From an uncultured Bacillota bacterium (GTDB lineage: Bacteria; Bacillota_I; Bacilli_A; RFN20; CAG-288), in NCBI GenBank assembly GCA_949284445.1, contig CASDVP010000003.1, positions 62,001 through 126,000 of the forward strand: 64,000 nt of DNA, read 5' to 3'. The first letter of the stretch is position 1; each line of letters begins with the position of its first letter. Shown piece after piece: positions 23,703 to 36,516 of the stretch. The notes under the pieces were generated by a model, which made no database searches, was not told the DNA's origin, and was given only the letters and a program-made list of their open reading frames with translations. The translations under genes were made by a program, and so were the position numbers.

Positions 23703-25235
23703 ATGAGCCAGAAAAGAATTGTTGTTTTAGATTTCGGCGGTCAATACAACGAACTGATCGCTAGAAGAGTACGACAATGTCATGTCTATTCCGAGGTTCT
23801 TCCATTCAATACTGATATTGAAAAGCTCAAAGATGATGATATTTTGGGTTTCATCTTCACTGGTGGACCTAATTCAGTTTACAAACAAGAATCGCCTCAA
23901 ATCACTAAAGAAATTTTCAATCTTAAAAAACCGATTTTAGGAATATGCTATGGTGCTCAACTGATCGCTTATGAATTGAATGGCACTGTAGATACTGCAC
24001 CAGTTTCTGAATATGGTCGAATCGAAATAACTAAAAAGAATGATTCAAAATTATTAGAAGGTATCAGTAAAAAAACTGATGTTTTTATGTCGCATACTGA
24101 TTATGTCAGTAAGTTACCTGAAGGATTCATCGTCACTTCTTCATCTAAAGATTGTCCGATAGCATCATTTGAAAATGAAGAACGTCAAATCTATGCCACG
24201 CAATTTCATCCAGAAGTCACTCATACTGTTGAAGGACAAAAAATAATCGAAAATTTCGTTTATAAAATTGCCAAAGCTGAACCGACATGGAAACCTGAAT
24301 CTTTCGTCAAAACGAAGATCGATGAGATAAGAGAAAAAGTGAATGATGGAACAGTCTTATTAGGATTATCAGGTGGAGTTGATTCATCAGTGACTGCTGC
24401 TTTACTGAGTAAAGCCATCGGTAAAAATCTTTATTGTGTATTTGTAGATCACGGACTTCTGAGAAAAAATGAATCTGATGAAGTTGAACAAGCTTTTAAA
24501 AAGTTTGATTTGAATTTCATCAAAGTAGATGCTTCTAAATTGTTTTTGGATCGTTTAAAAGGTGTGATAGAACCAGAGCAAAAAAGAAAGATAGTCGGGT
24601 CTACATTTTTAGAAGTCTTTGAACAAGAAGCTAAAAAATTAGGTAAAATCGATTATTTCGCACAAGGCACTATTTATCCAGATAGAATCGAATCCGGTCT
24701 AGGAGTATCGGCTACGATCAAATCACATCACAACGTTGGCGGCTTACCTAAAAAAATGGATTTCAAAGGCTTGATAGAACCATTAGATAATTTATTCAAG
24801 GATGAAGTTAGGGCACTCGGAAAAGAATTGGGATTACCTGACAACCTTATAAATAGACAACCATTCCCTGGACCTGGTTTAAGCATTCGCATCATCGGTG
24901 AAGTGACTGAAGAAAAGATAAGAATAGTTCAAGAAGCAGACTATATTTTTAGAGAAGAGATCAAAAATGCTAATTTAGATACGACCATTAGTCAGTATTT
25001 TGCAGCTTTGAGCAACCTCAAATCAGTCGGTGTCATGGGAGATAGTCGCACCTATGATTATGCAATTGTTTTAAGAGCAGTGATAACTGATAACTTTATG
25101 ACATGCAAAGCATATCATTTTGACGAAACTGTGATGACTAAAATTGCTGATAGGATCGTCAATGAAGTCAAAGGTGTAAATCGTGTTCTATATGATTTCA
25201 CTTCAAAACCGCCAGCTACTATCGAATTAGAATAG
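23703..25235 (+). CDS. guaA: GMP synthase (glutamine-hydrolysing)
   Basis: A 510-residue GuaA of normal length. The N-terminal glutamine amidotransferase half has the nucleophile Cys in GICYGAQL and the His/Glu in FHPEVTHT; the ATP-pyrophosphatase half has the PP-loop LSGGVDSS, and the C-terminal dimerisation domain ends with the invariant-type KPPATIELE. It aminates XMP to GMP using glutamine and ATP. Start: GTGAGG at 23688-23693 before the ATG; a TATAAT lies at 23678-23683. The gene stands alone, divergent from the operon at 23573. The 129-base gap is too short and lacks the pairing for a purine riboswitch. gmk and purB are also in this window but not linked. Confidence 0.97.
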   Translation: MSQKRIVVLDFGGQYNELIARRVRQCHVYSEVLPFNTDIEKLKDDDILGFIFTGGPNSVYKQESPQITKEIFNLKKPILGICYGAQLIAYELNGTVDTAPVSEYGRIEITKKNDSKLLEGISKKTDVFMSHTDYVSKLPEGFIVTSSSKDCPIASFENEERQIYATQFHPEVTHTVEGQKIIENFVYKIAKAEPTWKPESFVKTKIDEIREKVNDGTVLLGLSGGVDSSVTAALLSKAIGKNLYCVFVDHGLLRKNESDEVEQAFKKFDLNFIKVDASKLFLDRLKGVIEPEQKRKIVGSTFLEVFEQEAKKLGKIDYFAQGTIYPDRIESGLGVSATIKSHHNVGGLPKKMDFKGLIEPLDNLFKDEVRALGKELGLPDNLINRQPFPGPGLSIRIIGEVTEEKIRIVQEADYIFREEIKNANLDTTISQYFAALSNLKSVGVMGDSRTYDYAIVLRAVITDNFMTCKAYHFDETVMTKIADRIVNEVKGVNRVLYDFTSKPPATIELE

Positions 25236-25267
25236 CCAAAAGTTTTATCAAAAAAGAAAAATAAGCT

Positions 25268-25298
25268 ATCAAATAAAGATTAATTATTTGATGATTTT
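25268..25298. terminator. Bidirectional terminator overlapping a stop codon
   Basis: Nine-base perfect stem ATCAAATAA (25268-25276) / TTATTTGAT (25284-25292) with a 7-base loop, followed by GATTTT on the + strand and a long T-rich run on the minus strand. It closes guaA and, read the other way, the XRE gene, whose stop codon at 25284-25286 lies inside the stem. Confidence 0.75.
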
Positions 25299-25895
25299 AA
25301 GTTTATCATTTATTGCAAAGTGCAGAGTTAAGGCTATTTGAATAGGTATCATCAAAATAAATAAAGGCCAAATATTATATTGTATAAACTGAACGTAACA
25401 GGCGATGACTAGGGTCCAGAAGAAGATCGTCTGAATCACAAAATTATAGACTTTATTTTTCCAAACTTTTTTGAAAAGTAGCATGAGTAACGAGGTTGCT
25501 GGTAAAGCCCAAACAAATATTTGCCAAAAATTGATATCAGAAATAAAGGTTAAATAAATATAAATTATACCGGCAAGGATCCAAACGAAGGAGCAATATA
25601 GGGTTTCTATCAATGCATTGTTGATAATAATGGCTTTATTCATCCGATTTACATAACGTATCTTGTTTTCAAAGCTATTTTCATCAATCAAAAAATCTAA
25701 TTTAACATTATAAAATTGGCACAGCTTATAAAGTGTTTCAACATCGGGTAATGTATCACCATTTTCCCATTTACTAACTGCTTTATCACTATAACCAAAT
25801 CGTTCTGCAAGCTCACTTTGAGTAAGCTTTCTATTTTTTCTTAAAGCTGTTAAATTTTTAGCGATAATAATACGTAAATTTTTACTTTCTTCCAT
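25284..25895 (-). CDS. XRE-family HTH regulator with membrane tail
   Basis: A regulator of 203 residues from the ATG at 25895. An XRE helix-turn-helix (LTQSELAERFGYSDKAVSKWENGDTLPD) fills the first ~65 residues and four hydrophobic helices the C-terminal half, so it is a membrane-bound repressor type. I chose 25895 rather than the upstream ATG at 25910 because the promoter TTGACA-N17-TATGAT has its -10 box at 25907-25902, overlapping that upstream codon; transcription would begin at or next to the A of the ATG at 25895. That implies a leaderless mRNA. ACTCTCTT half-sites abutting the -35 box suggest autoregulation. It is divergent from the exported-protein pair at 26051, a likely target. Confidence 0.85.
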   Translation of the reverse strand: MEESKNLRIIIAKNLTALRKNRKLTQSELAERFGYSDKAVSKWENGDTLPDVETLYKLCQFYNVKLDFLIDENSFENKIRYVNRMNKAIIINNALIETLYCSFVWILAGIIYIYLTFISDINFWQIFVWALPATSLLMLLFKKVWKNKVYNFVIQTIFFWTLVIACYVQFIQYNIWPLFILMIPIQIALTLHFAINDKLKIIK

Positions 25896-25901
25896 ACAAG
25901 T

Positions 25902-25930
25902 ATCATACAAATGCTGGGTAAAAATGTCAA
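25902..25930 (-). promoter_or_regulatory. Consensus promoter of the XRE gene
   Basis: Minus strand TTGACA (25930-25925), 17-base spacer, TATGAT (25907-25902). Six bases separate the -10 box from the ATG at 25895, so the expected +1 coincides with the start codon. Confidence 0.8.
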
Positions 25931-25968
25931 ACTCTCTTAAAAAGAGAGTGTTTTCTTGAACTCTCTTT
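25930..25968. promoter_or_regulatory. Putative operator: three ACTCTCTT half-sites
   Basis: ACTCTCTT occurs directly at 25931-25938 and 25960-25967, and inverted (AAGAGAGT) at 25942-25949. The first copy adjoins the -35 box of the XRE gene. The inverted pair has a 3-base gap (8-bp perfect palindrome arms), the other a 10-base gap. Located between the divergent XRE gene and the exported-protein operon, this is a good candidate binding site for the XRE protein; binding itself is inference. Confidence 0.55.
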
Positions 25969-25993
25969 TAAGGTTTTGAAGTTTCTAGTGACA

Positions 25994-26022
25994 TTGAAAA
26001 TGGCTTTTGCTTAAATTACTAT
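25994..26022 (+). promoter_or_regulatory. Promoter of the exported-protein pair
   Basis: TTGAAA (25994-25999), 17-base spacer, TACTAT (26017-26022). The ATG at 26021 lies within the -10 box, which argues that translation starts at the later ATG at 26051, preceded by GAAAGGG. Confidence 0.6.
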
Positions 26023-26050
26023 GGCTTTTAAGCTAGAAAGGGCGTCTAAA

Positions 26051-26929
26051 ATGACAAAAGATAAAAAATCAACAATCATCACTATCTCTGGCATTTTATT
26101 ATCTTTAATAATAGGTGGTGCTGCAGGCACTATCGTCGCTTTTAGCCTTTCAAAAAAAGGAGTCGATTATTCACAAGTACATGTGACCGAGAACGATCAA
26201 GAATCTCTTTATGAAGATTACATCAACAATCCGCGTGATCCACTAACATATAAGCCATTCGAATTAGCTAATATTGCTTTTTATAAATATAGTTTGAATG
26301 AATATACTAGAAGTGAAGTTAAATCCTCAGCAGTTGCTATGGGTGTCACCCAAACCACAAATGGTCAAAACTTCAAGAATAAAGATATATATTTTAGTGA
26401 AAGTGTTTCTTCATCAACTTTTGTTAAAGTCGCTAAAAGATTTTATATTCAAGATGACAAAGTCGATATTTATAACGGCAAACTCATCAATAATAAAAAT
26501 GGTCTAGGCGGTGAATATTCAACCTCAGAAGAAATGACTGTTGATGAATATAAAGATACTTGGGGTAAAGACTTAAATAATCCTGTCATTTATACCATAA
26601 CTTCTGAAACCACTCTTGACAGTTCTTCAATCTCGAAAACTGATGATGGTTATCTGATCTCCTTAGATCTGGATCCCTTAAAGAGTGTCACAAGATATGT
26701 CAAACAGATGATGCAGATGTCTAATTTATCTGATTCACCTGAATTCGATTATGTTCATCTTGAATTCAGCTTGGATTCTGAGCTCAACCTCTTAGAGATG
26801 AATGTCAAAGAAGCATATTATGTTTGGGTTGTTGGTAAAAATTATACTGAAGCCAAGTTAACTGAAAAATTTATGGTAATGGATGAGAGCACTCCTATCC
26901 CTTCGGTTGATGAAGTTGTTTATTATTGA
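26051..26929 (+). CDS. Membrane-anchored extracytoplasmic protein, unknown function
   Basis: A 292-residue protein from the ATG at 26051 (GAAAGGG 8 bases upstream). After a basic start there is one membrane helix (about residues 10-35), then an extracellular part of alternating beta-type segments with many Ser, Thr, Asp and Tyr. I recognise no domain. It is followed after 8 bases by the gene for a larger exported protein whose Shine-Dalgarno (GAGGTG) overlaps this stop codon, so the two are co-expressed. The mixed pattern of polar and hydrophobic residues recalls lipid-binding beta folds, but this is a weak impression. Divergent XRE regulator may control it. Confidence 0.65.
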   Translation: MTKDKKSTIITISGILLSLIIGGAAGTIVAFSLSKKGVDYSQVHVTENDQESLYEDYINNPRDPLTYKPFELANIAFYKYSLNEYTRSEVKSSAVAMGVTQTTNGQNFKNKDIYFSESVSSSTFVKVAKRFYIQDDKVDIYNGKLINNKNGLGGEYSTSEEMTVDEYKDTWGKDLNNPVIYTITSETTLDSSSISKTDDGYLISLDLDPLKSVTRYVKQMMQMSNLSDSPEFDYVHLEFSLDSELNLLEMNVKEAYYVWVVGKNYTEAKLTEKFMVMDESTPIPSVDEVVYY

Positions 26930-26937
26930 GGTGTTAA

Positions 26938-29814
26938 ATGAGAACTCTGTTTAAAAGATTAATAATATGGTCAAGCGTCTTCTTAGTTTCTGCAGGAACC
27001 GCTTTTGCTTGCTCGTTTGACTATAAAAGTTTAAGTAAAAATAATAATAGTGCTGTTAACACTAGTCAGAACAATGAATCATCTAAGAAACCTAGTGTTA
27101 AACCTCAACAAGCTTTATTGAATAGTATCATATCTTTAAAGCAAGCTGAGATTGCTGGTGCGATAAACATCACTGCTGATAATCAAGACATCAATATCGA
27201 TCTCGATGGTCAACTAGAACTTGATACATCTGCATTAGAAAACACCCGTTTTGAAGGATCAACTGATATCGATATCAACGGTGCTGATATCAATGCAAAA
27301 ATCAATTATTATGATGGCAAAATTTTCATGGATTATGAGAACTCTAAACTTTTCCTTGAAACTGATTCATTATTAGATTTTATCGAAACTATTCCTAATT
27401 ATGGATTAAATCTCACATTGCCTGAAGAATTGACCAATATCGATATCAATGGCATCATGTCTAAATTAGATACTATGGAGCCTGAAAAGACCAGTGATGG
27501 TTATCTGTTTAAGCTAGAATTGAGTGATACGATTGAATTATTATTAAAAAGTGATGATGAATATAATTTTACAGGTGCAAAGACCAATAAATTTTATTTT
27601 GAAAATACTTATATTTATCTAGACTTTGATTTAGTTCAGCATCCGAGCAACGATTTGACTTTTTCTGAGCCTAATATACTTGAATATCAAAACTTTTCAT
27701 CAGCATTCAATTTAGTTAACGCTTTGTATAACACTTTCACTAGGGCAAACAACACGATCAATCTTTCACTTGATATTTCTTACCTCAATAACCCTTATTT
27801 AAATTTTGCTGGTGATATTTCATATGATACTGACCTTTCTGCTATATCCTTTGATGGTGATATTGAAGAAGTTGAAAACAACAGAAGTCATCGTTTTAAA
27901 CTTGGTTACCAACAAGATAATTTGATAGTCAATTACAATAATTTAAAATTCAAAATTGAAAAGCAAAGCATAAGTGCGCTTTTAGGATATGTTTTAGAAA
28001 AAGTCGGTGATGATTATTTACAGAATGCTTTGAATAAATTAGATGAACTTCTTCAAAATCAAGATTTTCAGAACATCACTAATGATTTAAATCTGATAAA
28101 TAATATTATTAAGAACGTCAATTTTACTGATTCCAGCATTAACATCTCTTTGAATTTATCAGCTTTAGGAATAGAAGCTGATAACATTCTCATCGATGTT
28201 GATTTCGACAAAGAAAGTTTAAACGCGATTCAAATTCAAGGCTTAAATATAAACGGTTATGCAGCTGATATCTGTTTGTCTTTAAAGCAATATGCCCCTA
28301 TCAACTTCAATCTTGATGATTATGTATCGATCGATCCAGCTCTTTGCCTATTAGAAGCATATGAAGGATTATCAAAAGAAAACAGATTCAGATTGGAATT
28401 TTCTGGATTAATTGATGATCAAAATGAAGCCACTTCTGATATTAATATAGAAGGTGGTTTACAATTTGACATCACGAATAAATTTGGTTATGGTGAATTA
28501 GATCTCAAAGATAAAAACGATTATAACCATGATATAAAAGTCGATATGAGAAGTTTTGATGAAATATTATTCACCTATAATGATCAGATGAAAGGAAGAT
28601 TTTCCAGTGACTTCTTCACCGATCTTATAGATATGGTGAGTGAAATATTGAACAACAAAGATGACCACTTCTATGAATTATTCGGTGATCTGATGAATTC
28701 CATGTCTTCCTTGCCCTTGATGGATGCTATCGATTCTAAAGATTATGGTCAATTGCTTGAAATCGGACTGATAAATTCTTTCATTGTTTCTGAAAATAGC
28801 ATTGAATTAGAGATCAATGGTGGATTAATAGGTATCGATTCCTCTTTGAATCTCGAATTAGTCTTTGATTCTCATGCTAGTAATAGCAGTGAGATTATAA
28901 AGTCATTAAAAATTAATGATTTTGAATTTGAAGGAAACATCTATTCATTCAATATCGATTTAAAATCATTTGATGATAGTTTAGAAGATACCCGTTTAGA
29001 TCCATTTGATACTTATTTAGATTTTGATTCATTAGCAGTTTTATTAAGATTAGGTATCAACACTTCTATTTATAATCATTATCATTTCACTGGCCAAGCA
29101 AGTCTAAACGTGCTCGGTATCAACATCGAAATCCCACTCGATTTAAAGATTGTCAATGATAAAGGTGATGTTTCTATCGCTATCGAATTAGAAAACATTC
29201 CTCTGATTCCTGGTGTCAACAGTGAAGTCAACGGTTTGCATTTCAATTCAGATAGAAAAATCAGCATCTATTACACTGATGGTTATTTCTATTTACATAG
29301 ACAAGAACAAGCCTCACCCAATGTTCTATTTTGGAATAAGACTGATTATGAAATGACCGCCAAAGTCGAAACACAATATTTCTTAGATAATATCATTTAT
29401 TATTTATGTGATTTCTCTTTGGGTTTAAACGATTCAATATTGGATCAGATCGGTTCTAGTTCAAATGATAGTGCTGACGAGAGCTCGATCATTCATTATG
29501 AAAATTTGTTGACTGATTTCTCCTTCAATGATCAGGTTGAAAGACCATACTTCCATTTTGGTCTCAACATGGTTGAACTGACAAAGATGGACATGTTCAG
29601 TGATTTAGATTTAAATGTTTACATCGATTCTCAAGAAAAGACTTTAAGTGGTATCAGTCTCAATTTGAATTTAAATGTCTTAGTCAATATCGCTATCAGC
29701 GCTAACTTGGATATCGTCGACTTAGGCACCGAATTCGCTTTAGATGCTTTAACAAGTTTTGTCGATGAACACATCAACGACGAAATCAATACAACTATTT
29801 CAACCTTTCACTAA
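26938..29814 (+). CDS. Large exported beta-rich protein, unknown function
   Basis: A 958-residue protein with a signal peptide ending AGTAFAC; Cys25 could be lipidated, though the lipobox (AFAC) is poor. A Ser/Asn linker leads to a long chain of amphipathic beta segments in which motifs such as INITADNQDINIDLDGQLEL or NLSLDISYLNNPYLNFAGDIS recur, separated by stretches of similar length. The repeating layout (short strand, DGK or DNQ turn, then a long 'L-D-x-[hydrophobic]' strand) suggests four or more tandem LolA/LppX-like lipid-binding folds, but I could not match one with certainty. Very Asp/Asn-rich and almost Cys-free. Paired with the gene at 26051. A role in lipid or polymer handling at the cell surface would be a guess. 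Confidence 0.65.
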   Translation: MRTLFKRLIIWSSVFLVSAGTAFACSFDYKSLSKNNNSAVNTSQNNESSKKPSVKPQQALLNSIISLKQAEIAGAINITADNQDINIDLDGQLELDTSALENTRFEGSTDIDINGADINAKINYYDGKIFMDYENSKLFLETDSLLDFIETIPNYGLNLTLPEELTNIDINGIMSKLDTMEPEKTSDGYLFKLELSDTIELLLKSDDEYNFTGAKTNKFYFENTYIYLDFDLVQHPSNDLTFSEPNILEYQNFSSAFNLVNALYNTFTRANNTINLSLDISYLNNPYLNFAGDISYDTDLSAISFDGDIEEVENNRSHRFKLGYQQDNLIVNYNNLKFKIEKQSISALLGYVLEKVGDDYLQNALNKLDELLQNQDFQNITNDLNLINNIIKNVNFTDSSINISLNLSALGIEADNILIDVDFDKESLNAIQIQGLNINGYAADICLSLKQYAPINFNLDDYVSIDPALCLLEAYEGLSKENRFRLEFSGLIDDQNEATSDINIEGGLQFDITNKFGYGELDLKDKNDYNHDIKVDMRSFDEILFTYNDQMKGRFSSDFFTDLIDMVSEILNNKDDHFYELFGDLMNSMSSLPLMDAIDSKDYGQLLEIGLINSFIVSENSIELEINGGLIGIDSSLNLELVFDSHASNSSEIIKSLKINDFEFEGNIYSFNIDLKSFDDSLEDTRLDPFDTYLDFDSLAVLLRLGINTSIYNHYHFTGQASLNVLGINIEIPLDLKIVNDKGDVSIAIELENIPLIPGVNSEVNGLHFNSDRKISIYYTDGYFYLHRQEQASPNVLFWNKTDYEMTAKVETQYFLDNIIYYLCDFSLGLNDSILDQIGSSSNDSADESSIIHYENLLTDFSFNDQVERPYFHFGLNMVELTKMDMFSDLDLNVYIDSQEKTLSGISLNLNLNVLVNIAISANLDIVDLGTEFALDALTSFVDEHINDEINTTISTFH

Positions 29815-33861: not shown

Positions 33862-36516
33862 ATGTTGACATCATCATTTGATAACATTCAGTTTAAAGGT
33901 ACCTTTCGTAACTATCAAAAGAAGATTTTAGATGCGTGTGAAAAATATCTCGCTGATAAAAAATTAAACATCGTCGCTGCTCCGGGTTCTGGTAAAACTA
34001 TTTTAGGATTAGAAATCATTCGAAAATTGCATAATAAGACTTTGATCTTGTCACCTACAACTACCATCAAACACCAATGGGGTGAGAGATTAAAAGATCT
34101 ATTTTTGCCTGAAGATGCCTCTTTAAGCGATTATCTCTCTTATGATTTACATGAGATAAAACTCATCAATTCAATAACTTACCAGGCTCTTTATTCGATG
34201 ATGAAAAAAGTGAAAGTCGAAGATGAAGAAGTGGATTTATCTTCACTTGATATTTTACAAATCATCAAAGATTTCGATATTAAAACTATCTGTTTAGATG
34301 AAGCCCATCACTTGAAAAACGAATGGCAAAAAGCCTTGACAGCTTTCTTGAAAAGTTTAGATAAAGATATCACTATCATCTCTTTGACAGCCACACCACC
34401 TTATGATGCTTCTCCTGAAGAATGGAAGAGATATCAAGAAACTTGTGGTGATATCGACGCTGAAATCTTTGTTCCTGAATTAGTTAAAGAAAAAACTCTC
34501 TGCCCACATCAAGACTATATTTACTTTAACTATGCGACTTTAGAAGAACAGAAAGTCTTTCAAAACTATCGTTTTAACGCCTTAGCAGCTATATCTGAAA
34601 TCAATGATTTAACTTGTTTCAAAGAACTGAATGACAGGATTAATAATCTATATAAAGAAAGAAAAGAAATCGTCTTTGCTAAATCACAATCCTTCTATTA
34701 TTTAGAATTATATCTACAAAAATACTTTTCAAAATATAACCATCATTTGCTGAGACTCTTATCATGTGGAAATAAAAAGAAACTGAATTTGCAAATCATT
34801 GAGGAGATCTATACATTTCTCTTAAAGTCTGATCTTCTATTTGATCAGACAGAAAAGAATCATTTGGATAAAATATTAAGAAAACATAGTTTGATTAATA
34901 ATTACGGGATCAGTCTTAATCTAAATGAATCACTTAAACGAAAACTCATCTCTTCGTGTGGAAAGCTAAAAAGCATAAGCGACATCGCTTTAAGTGAGTC
35001 TGAAAATCTGAAAGATGATTTGAGAATGTTGATTTTAACTGACTTCATCAAAAAAGAAGAATGCGATAAGTTAGGTACTCAACAAGAATTTAATTCTTTA
35101 TCAATAGTTTCAATATTTGAAACGCTCAGAAGAAAAGGCTTCAAAAAACTAGGATGTGTCTCAGGAAGTCTGATCATATTACCTATCTCGATAAAAAATG
35201 AATTAAATAATAAAAACATTTCTTACTCTTTTAAAGAGATTGAAAATACATCATATTGCTATTGTTCTTTCAATAGTCAAAACAAAGAAAAGGTTGATAT
35301 CGTCAATGACTTATTTAAAGAAGGAAAGATAGATATACTGATAGGCACGGCTTCCTTATTAGGTGAAGGTTTTGATTCACCTTGTATCAATTCCTTGATT
35401 TTAGCTTCTTATGTCGGCTCTTTTGTTCTTTCTAATCAGATGAGAGGACGCGCGATAAGAATAGATCCGAATAATCCGAATAAGACTGCTAATATTTTTC
35501 ATCTGGTGACTATCGAACCGGATTATATTTTTAAAGACAAAAAGATAGCCCAGTTAGGATCTTATCTTCAACAAGATCGCTCAACTTTCATATCCGAAGA
35601 TTATGAGACATTGAAAAGAAGATTCAGAAGTTTTATCGGACCGAATTATACAAATGGCAAATTAGAAACTGGTATTAAACGTATCACTTTGTTAAAAGGT
35701 CCGTTTGATAAAAAACGGTTTGAAACCATCAACGAAGGGATGCTAAAACTAGCTGCTAATAGGCAAGAATTATTTTCTGTTTGGCAAAATGCCTTGTGCG
35801 ATTATACTGGCAAGACTTATCTCGAAACTCTTTTCGAAAGAAAAGCTAAAGTTCCCACATTCTCTTTCATCAATATGGTCTCTATCATGACCTTCTATTT
35901 TGTCGCAATCATCTTCAACATCATTTATTTCACTTTTATCAGGACTTTCTTGCAGACCACTGAATTCACAATCTTAGCCATCATAGTCTTGGCTTTATCA
36001 GTGGTTTTGATTTATTTAGCGAGCAGAGCAGTCTATTTCATGATGTTACACATCAATCCTAATAAATCATTCAAACTGATAGCAAATGCCCTTTATCTAG
36101 CTTTGCAAGACATTCATAAACTCTCTTTAGATACCGAAATTGAGATCAGTGAAGATGCAAGTAAGAGGGTCTTTGAAGTGAAGCTGATCAATGCTTCTTT
36201 TCACGAACAAAACATCTTTATAACGGCTTTAAACGAGTTATTTTCACCTATTGAAAATCCTAAATATCTCTTAGTCAAAAAGAATTTCATCAATTTATAC
36301 GATTATAAATACACTTTTTCTTGTCCGGAAATCTTTGATTCTTCAAATCATCAAAGCCAAGAAGCTCTTTTGAACAGATTGAACAAAATCATGCCTGGCT
36401 ATTCATTGGTTTACACAAGATATGAAATCGGTTATAAAACGCTTCTCAAAGCTAGAAAATCATCCTTCGTCAATAAAAATGGAAAGCTGCTTTCATCAGA
36501 GATCAGTTTTAAATAA
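33862..36516 (+). CDS. SF2 DEAH-box helicase with transmembrane hairpin
   Basis: An 884-residue superfamily 2 helicase. Motif I APGSGKT is at 40-46, DEAH at 146-149, SAT-like motif III as SLTATPP, and the second RecA domain has GTASLLGEGFDSP and QMRGRAIR (motif VI). About residues 666-729 then form two hydrophobic helices separated by a short polar turn, followed by a ~155-residue cytoplasmic-looking tail. The enzyme would therefore sit on the inner membrane face, unusual for a helicase. The RecA cores resemble those of restriction-type and Rad25-like translocases, but no nuclease or methylase motif or neighbour is present. Transcript seems leaderless. Function unknown; a nucleic-acid surveillance or uptake role would be speculation. 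Confidence 0.82.
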   Translation: MLTSSFDNIQFKGTFRNYQKKILDACEKYLADKKLNIVAAPGSGKTILGLEIIRKLHNKTLILSPTTTIKHQWGERLKDLFLPEDASLSDYLSYDLHEIKLINSITYQALYSMMKKVKVEDEEVDLSSLDILQIIKDFDIKTICLDEAHHLKNEWQKALTAFLKSLDKDITIISLTATPPYDASPEEWKRYQETCGDIDAEIFVPELVKEKTLCPHQDYIYFNYATLEEQKVFQNYRFNALAAISEINDLTCFKELNDRINNLYKERKEIVFAKSQSFYYLELYLQKYFSKYNHHLLRLLSCGNKKKLNLQIIEEIYTFLLKSDLLFDQTEKNHLDKILRKHSLINNYGISLNLNESLKRKLISSCGKLKSISDIALSESENLKDDLRMLILTDFIKKEECDKLGTQQEFNSLSIVSIFETLRRKGFKKLGCVSGSLIILPISIKNELNNKNISYSFKEIENTSYCYCSFNSQNKEKVDIVNDLFKEGKIDILIGTASLLGEGFDSPCINSLILASYVGSFVLSNQMRGRAIRIDPNNPNKTANIFHLVTIEPDYIFKDKKIAQLGSYLQQDRSTFISEDYETLKRRFRSFIGPNYTNGKLETGIKRITLLKGPFDKKRFETINEGMLKLAANRQELFSVWQNALCDYTGKTYLETLFERKAKVPTFSFINMVSIMTFYFVAIIFNIIYFTFIRTFLQTTEFTILAIIVLALSVVLIYLASRAVYFMMLHINPNKSFKLIANALYLALQDIHKLSLDTEIEISEDASKRVFEVKLINASFHEQNIFITALNELFSPIENPKYLLVKKNFINLYDYKYTFSCPEIFDSSNHQSQEALLNRLNKIMPGYSLVYTRYEIGYKTLLKARKSSFVNKNGKLLSSEISFK

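Follow-up and report, generated by a model that had tools for sequence, protein, structure and literature searches.

The gene for a predicted membrane-bound XRE regulator in an uncultured Bacillota bacterium (CAG-288) very likely gives rise to a leaderless mRNA, in which transcription would begin on the A of the ATG start codon at position 25895. The window analyzed here is a stretch of 64,000 nt of the assembly GCA_949284445.1 (contig CASDVP010000003.1, positions 62,001-126,000) and the features discussed are listed in Table 1. As an earlier note on this DNA had claimed, a TTGACA and a TATGAT element separated by a 17-nt spacer are present on the minus strand and the second ends 6 bases before the ATG, with only ACTTGT (25901-25896) filling the six positions between them. 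This gap falls inside the 6-8 nt that we used to define a leaderless promoter. The gene also starts with AUG and a Shine-Dalgarno (SD) sequence, looked for before the ATG at 25895, was not found; these were two further criteria for a leaderless mRNA. Transcription starting within about 5 nt of the start codon, the remaining criterion, is predicted from the -10 spacing and the -1 pyrimidine. No riboswitch or other known RNA matched at the gathering threshold in 25000-27500. The promoter scores 11/12 and is the top promoter-like site across 24500-27000. The 15 promoter-like sites in that 2.5 kb are near expectation (11.6 in shuffles, sd 3.4), and promoter counts from the window alone are insufficient to decide between a chance match and a real promoter. 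The exact TTGACA-N17-TATGAT pattern occurs in two places in the 1.47-Mb genome and its reversed control pattern in none.

Table 1. Positions of the features in the window
Feature	Position	Strand	Basis or remark
-35 element TTGACA	25925-25930	-	Sequence read-out and promoter scoring
-10 element TATGAT	25902-25907	-	End 6 nt from ATG; spacing kept in family
Start codon ATG	25893-25895	-	Predicted +1 at 25895 (A); base at -1 is T (25896)
In-frame TTG, would give MYDTC	25908-25910	-	Judged unused (sequence; stop in L004)
XRE (HTH_3) regulator gene, 203 aa, four predicted transmembrane helices	25284-25895	-	Pfam and AlphaFold2
O1 palindrome CTCTCTT-TTT-AAGAGAG	25932-25948		Abuts -35; centre near -45
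O2, imperfect, one perfect half AAGAGAG	25961-25977		29 nt from O1, farther out; footprint alignment
Divergent -10-like TCTAGT, weak	25984-25989	+	Tentative; O2 covers the matching -35 region
Gene for membrane-anchored LppX/LprG/LolA-like protein	26051-26929	+	Likely start after AAAGGG; longest ORF from 26021
Gene for 958-aa protein	26938-29814	+	Follows the divergent gene after 8 nt

The evidence for the leaderless start comes from the regulator family, defined by an XRE helix-turn-helix (HTH) together with four predicted transmembrane (TM) helices. Of 279 genomes in the order, 214 gave a profile match at E<=1e-25, and named genomes, when scanned, contributed 80 loci with titles from Bacilli, Erysipelotrichales, Clostridia, Oscillospiraceae and others. 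We compared 139 non-redundant upstream regions drawn from 174 loci with a profile match, after excluding matches below 160 bits, one locus lacking a start (L047), loci with less than 80 nt upstream and duplicates; these are the best-scoring loci and not a random sample. Start codons were placed by protein profile with ATG preferred and the promoter was not used, while the leaderless class was defined by matching to the promoter consensus. In 70 of the 139 members, 6-8 nt separate the start codon from the end of a promoter of at least 8/12, and the other 3-nt bins between 0 and 44 hold 2-10 each. A -10 element of at least 5/6 at a gap of 6 or 7 is found in 52/139, compared with 3.8 in shuffles (maximum 9 in 200). 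Leaderless promoters (70) and SD sequences of at least 4 (44) coincide in only three of the 139 members (Fisher p = 2.9e-13), and when each 55%-identity cluster is represented once (n = 58) there are 29 leaderless, 14 SD and none with both. These family and shuffle controls rule out a chance promoter in A+T-rich DNA. With 67 members leaderless-type, 41 SD-led and 31/139 in neither class, the leaderless trait is not universal in the family. A quick tree built from 120 members requires only 8 changes between leaderless and SD states versus 30.5 with shuffled labels, and none of 500 shuffles was as low. The leaderless start thus appears, from these upstream sequences, to be conserved in the family across Bacilli and Clostridia, including distant relatives from the animal gut.

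The base before the start codon, which took no part in the leaderless/SD classification, provides a separate line of evidence. Bacterial RNA polymerase prefers to initiate with a pyrimidine at -1 and a purine at +1. A pyrimidine occupies -1 in 65/67 leaderless-type members versus 23/41 SD-led members (p = 1.6e-7), in 29/29 of the 55% clusters of leaderless-type members and in 28/31 of the unclassified ones; background values are 105/167 for first-ATG genes sampled from the same genome and 277/455 for genes flanking the named loci. Since this is the usual initiator pattern, it points to the A of the ATG as +1. ATG is the start codon in every one of the 67 leaderless-type members versus 34/41 SD-led members, ATG having been preferred in both classes when starts were chosen. 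The proposal in the earlier note that transcription should start on the ATG is thereby strongly supported, through the 6-8-nt spacing, the exclusion of SD sequences, the -1 pyrimidine and the exclusive use of ATG. A general habit of this genome was also considered and is ruled out for the 264 kb sampled: of its 169 ORFs, 125 carry an SD before an early ATG, and four, the regulator gene included, have a promoter of at least 9/12 at a gap of 6 or 7.

The description of the product as a membrane XRE regulator holds up in the protein analysis. The window protein contains HTH_3 (PF01381, Pfam E=4e-17), as do 16/16 members of set A1. The AlphaFold2 model (pLDDT 81.7) places the HTH at about residues 3-70, followed by four long C-terminal helices (88-118, 125-145, 148-169 and 176-195) that are consistent with a membrane domain, so that a DNA-binding domain and TM segments are predicted to share one chain. 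The top Foldseek match of the regulator is C.BclI and its HTH also resembles P22 c2; the TM domain, folded within the whole protein, had no PDB match past the HTH in the Foldseek top 50. The gene adjoins guaA and no mobile-element gene was seen among the neighbors.

Upstream of the promoter lies O1, a perfect palindrome that abuts the -35 element in the window and likewise in close relatives. Its consensus, YTCTMYTNNNARKAGAR, is found at 12/14 or better in 88/139 members against a shuffle mean of 6.4, a count that leans upward on the first relatives viewed, after which the consensus was written. Second, weaker sites lie farther upstream and peak at offsets of 28-31 nt (31 of the 50 found among 90 operators). 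In close relatives one half of the second site is conserved, and next to it comes a divergent -10-like block. No regulon of many perfect operators was found in the genome: ACTCTCTTNNNAAGAGAGT occurs perfectly once, here, and once with 2 mismatches, and with up to 3 mismatches its 24 occurrences per strand nearly equal the 19 of the reversed control. Orientation of the upstream neighbor separates the two traits. Among the 92 members whose upstream ORF is at least 100 aa long, the operator is present in 54/72 with a divergent gene versus 4/20 with a codirectional one, whereas leaderlessness is similar in both (37/72 and 9/20). The operator tracks the divergent neighbor; leaderlessness tracks the regulator gene. 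This enrichment indicates that the operator probably serves the divergent target and not autorepression alone.

The divergent gene in the window has orthologs of about 300 aa that are likewise divergent in relatives, with 26 members in its BLAST-link cluster (the sizes of such clusters include some members not directly upstream). The protein has a sub-threshold Pfam match in the window and no Pfam family in two relatives checked. Its model (pLDDT 88.6) resembles LppX (Z 11.7, rmsd 3.8, 168 aligned), LprG (Z 10.7, rmsd 4.9, 179 aligned) and LolA (Z up to 9.1), folds that carry lipids or lipoproteins. In other branches the neighbor clusters are DegV (22; PF02645 in both tested), a family known as the fatty-acid-binding FakB, acyltransferase-like (13; PF01553 in 2/3 tested) and glycosyltransferase 8 (GT8; 7; PF01501 in 3/3 tested), and an AMP-binding enzyme and a GDSL lipase occur as single cases. 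Not all neighbors are lipid genes, as an EamA transporter and several proteins without a family are included, and 6 of the 20 neighbors on which Pfam was run gave no family. The set of partners suggests, rather than proves, a shared membrane-lipid theme. A promoter for the divergent gene is tentative. The TCTAGT in the window has the counterpart TATAGT in three relatives (L004, L122 and L137), and reverse-strand -10 elements show a weak peak 35-39 nt from O1 (13 in this 5-nt bin, neighboring bins 3 and 8), with counts that are larger again at 60-64 and 75-89 nt. The 958-aa gene that follows is probably in one operon with the divergent gene. Its product looks secreted and has no Pfam family, and a related large neighbor is found in L033 and L034.

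The explanation that we consider likely combines these elements. A sigma-70-type promoter would start on the A of the regulator's ATG and produce a leaderless mRNA; the regulator, most likely seated in the membrane, would bind O1 and O2 as dimers between its own gene and the divergent one; and, responding to membrane state, it would control the divergent lipid-handling gene and possibly its own promoter as well. The distance from operator to -10 in leaderless members clusters at 23-24, 34-40 and 46-49 nt, and two other roles for the palindrome compete with this explanation. The regulator could activate its own promoter from O1, as lambda CI does at PRM or as C proteins do, while the divergent promoter is repressed. 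Operator centres lie near -45 or -57 to -62, which are typical activator positions; the resemblance of the HTH to C.BclI and P22 c2 fits as well, and C.PvuII is described as activating its own gene, which is transcribed without a leader (PMC2997769). The promoter in the window is, however, so near to consensus that an activator should be unnecessary, and 16 of the 70 leaderless-type members have no recognized operator; we regard auto-activation as rather doubtful. Less probable still, and in our view unlikely, is that the palindrome is solely an autorepressor operator for the leaderless promoter. O1 abutting the -35 element in the window and close relatives would fit such a role, but the majority of leaderless members have 11-26 nt between the end of the operator and -35, and the association of the operator, unlike leaderlessness, with a divergent neighbor argues against it. 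With the palindrome upstream of -35 and associated with a divergent neighbor, activation and repression are both possible, and the term repressor used in the earlier note goes beyond the evidence. The same applies to its statement that translation is insensitive to leader-based control, which is true in a trivial sense only; both stress and the IF2/IF3 ratio have been connected with leaderless translation (PMC6431027).

Two further alternatives concern the start itself. A promoter farther upstream, giving an mRNA with an ordinary leader, could account for most of the expression, in which case the promoter near the ATG would be secondary and translation SD-independent; 41/139 members are SD-led and many of these have promoters farther upstream. 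No other minus-strand promoter of at least 9/12 was found between 25931 and 26840, no SD precedes the ATG, and the 6-8-nt spacing and -1 pyrimidine are kept over deep divergence, all of which make this alternative improbable. The protein could also begin farther upstream at 25910, with an mRNA start upstream of that, given that the frame is open to this position; we discard this as scarcely credible, as the codon directly precedes the -10 box and lacks an SD, and the reading frame of L004, an ortholog with 87% identity, is closed by a stop codon 12 nt 5' of its ATG with no start codon between, so that an MYDTC product is not conserved. The earlier note had read this codon as an ATG; it is a TTG, and the ATG at 25906, within the -10 box, belongs to another frame. 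Among leaderless-type members, 24/67 have a stop within 12 nt upstream and 20/67 have some alternative in-frame start upstream.

Leaderless regulator genes are already known (lambda cI, C.PvuII, CvkR). C proteins are not known to have a membrane domain. C.PvuII and C.AhdI share with the present case an XRE-type fold and a leaderless transcript of the regulator gene, but have other targets, and the auto-activation published for C.PvuII (PMC2997769) is only a candidate here. C proteins are located with restriction and methylase genes; the neighbors in the window are guaA and the LolA-like protein gene. Lambda cI (from PRM) and Tn1721 tetR, described as the best-studied leaderless mRNAs (PMC9938897), are alike in placing a repressor gene on a leaderless mRNA, but these regulators are soluble and belong to mobile elements, whereas the regulator described here has four predicted TM helices and lies beside guaA. 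CvkR of type V-K CAST is a further regulator with a leaderless mRNA, and only a short spacer separates it from its target gene (PMC9938897); it differs in belonging to the MerR family, in that its target cas12k is also leaderless, and in its association with a CRISPR-associated transposon. ToxR/CadC-type proteins are likewise one-component regulators with a DNA-binding domain and a TM part, described in a paper whose main text does not contain the term XRE (PMC10269533); four TM helices are predicted here. In streptococci, about 8-9% of mRNAs are reported to be leaderless and conserved between species, and 90% of leaderless mRNAs in S. agalactiae to begin on the A, whereas such starts are rare in the sampled part of this genome (4/169 ORFs). 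Leaderless genes of Firmicutes were assigned mainly to Lactobacillales and Mycoplasma (Zheng et al., 2011; PMC3160421), a mapping of C. difficile gave only 15 potentially leaderless genes (PMC7438776), and -10 boxes adjoining ORFs are described as common in Deinococcus-Thermus in a 2025 paper (PMC12340547). Among open-licence PMC articles, we found none naming this regulator family or its leaderless start.

The larger unit is probably a leaderless membrane XRE regulator with paired operators and a divergent, likely lipid-handling gene. As a more speculative proposal, which we hold only tentatively, four-TM XRE regulators of gut Bacillota may sense membrane lipid state from within the bilayer itself and control divergent lipid-handling genes through operators 29 nt apart, and their leaderless mRNAs may tie regulator synthesis to 70S or initiation-factor status instead of SD-dependent initiation, a coupling that selection would have maintained across Bacilli and Clostridia. 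One family apparently keeps leaderless starts across two classes whose sampled genes are mostly SD-led. Since leaderless and SD-led members occur in the same family, the use of the leaderless mRNA can be tested by swapping them. The analysis further supplies a predicted binding site, together with a list of putative lipid-related targets, for an uncharacterized family of membrane regulators in uncultured gut bacteria.

Some further loci are of interest in their own right. In L036 and L141, which belong to a clade with leaderless members, the operator lies about 122-123 nt 5' of the ATG, so that a longer leader is probable; they offer natural pairs for the study of leader gain or loss. In the window, a ResIII/DEAD-type helicase gene (33862-36513, plus strand) is a second leaderless candidate: a gap of 6 nt lies between a TATAAT and its ATG, and C occupies -1. 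In two other ORFs of the same genome (L193 at 14260 and L198 at 4268, both minus strand), the ATG follows a promoter scoring 10/12 at a gap of 7 nt, also with C at -1.
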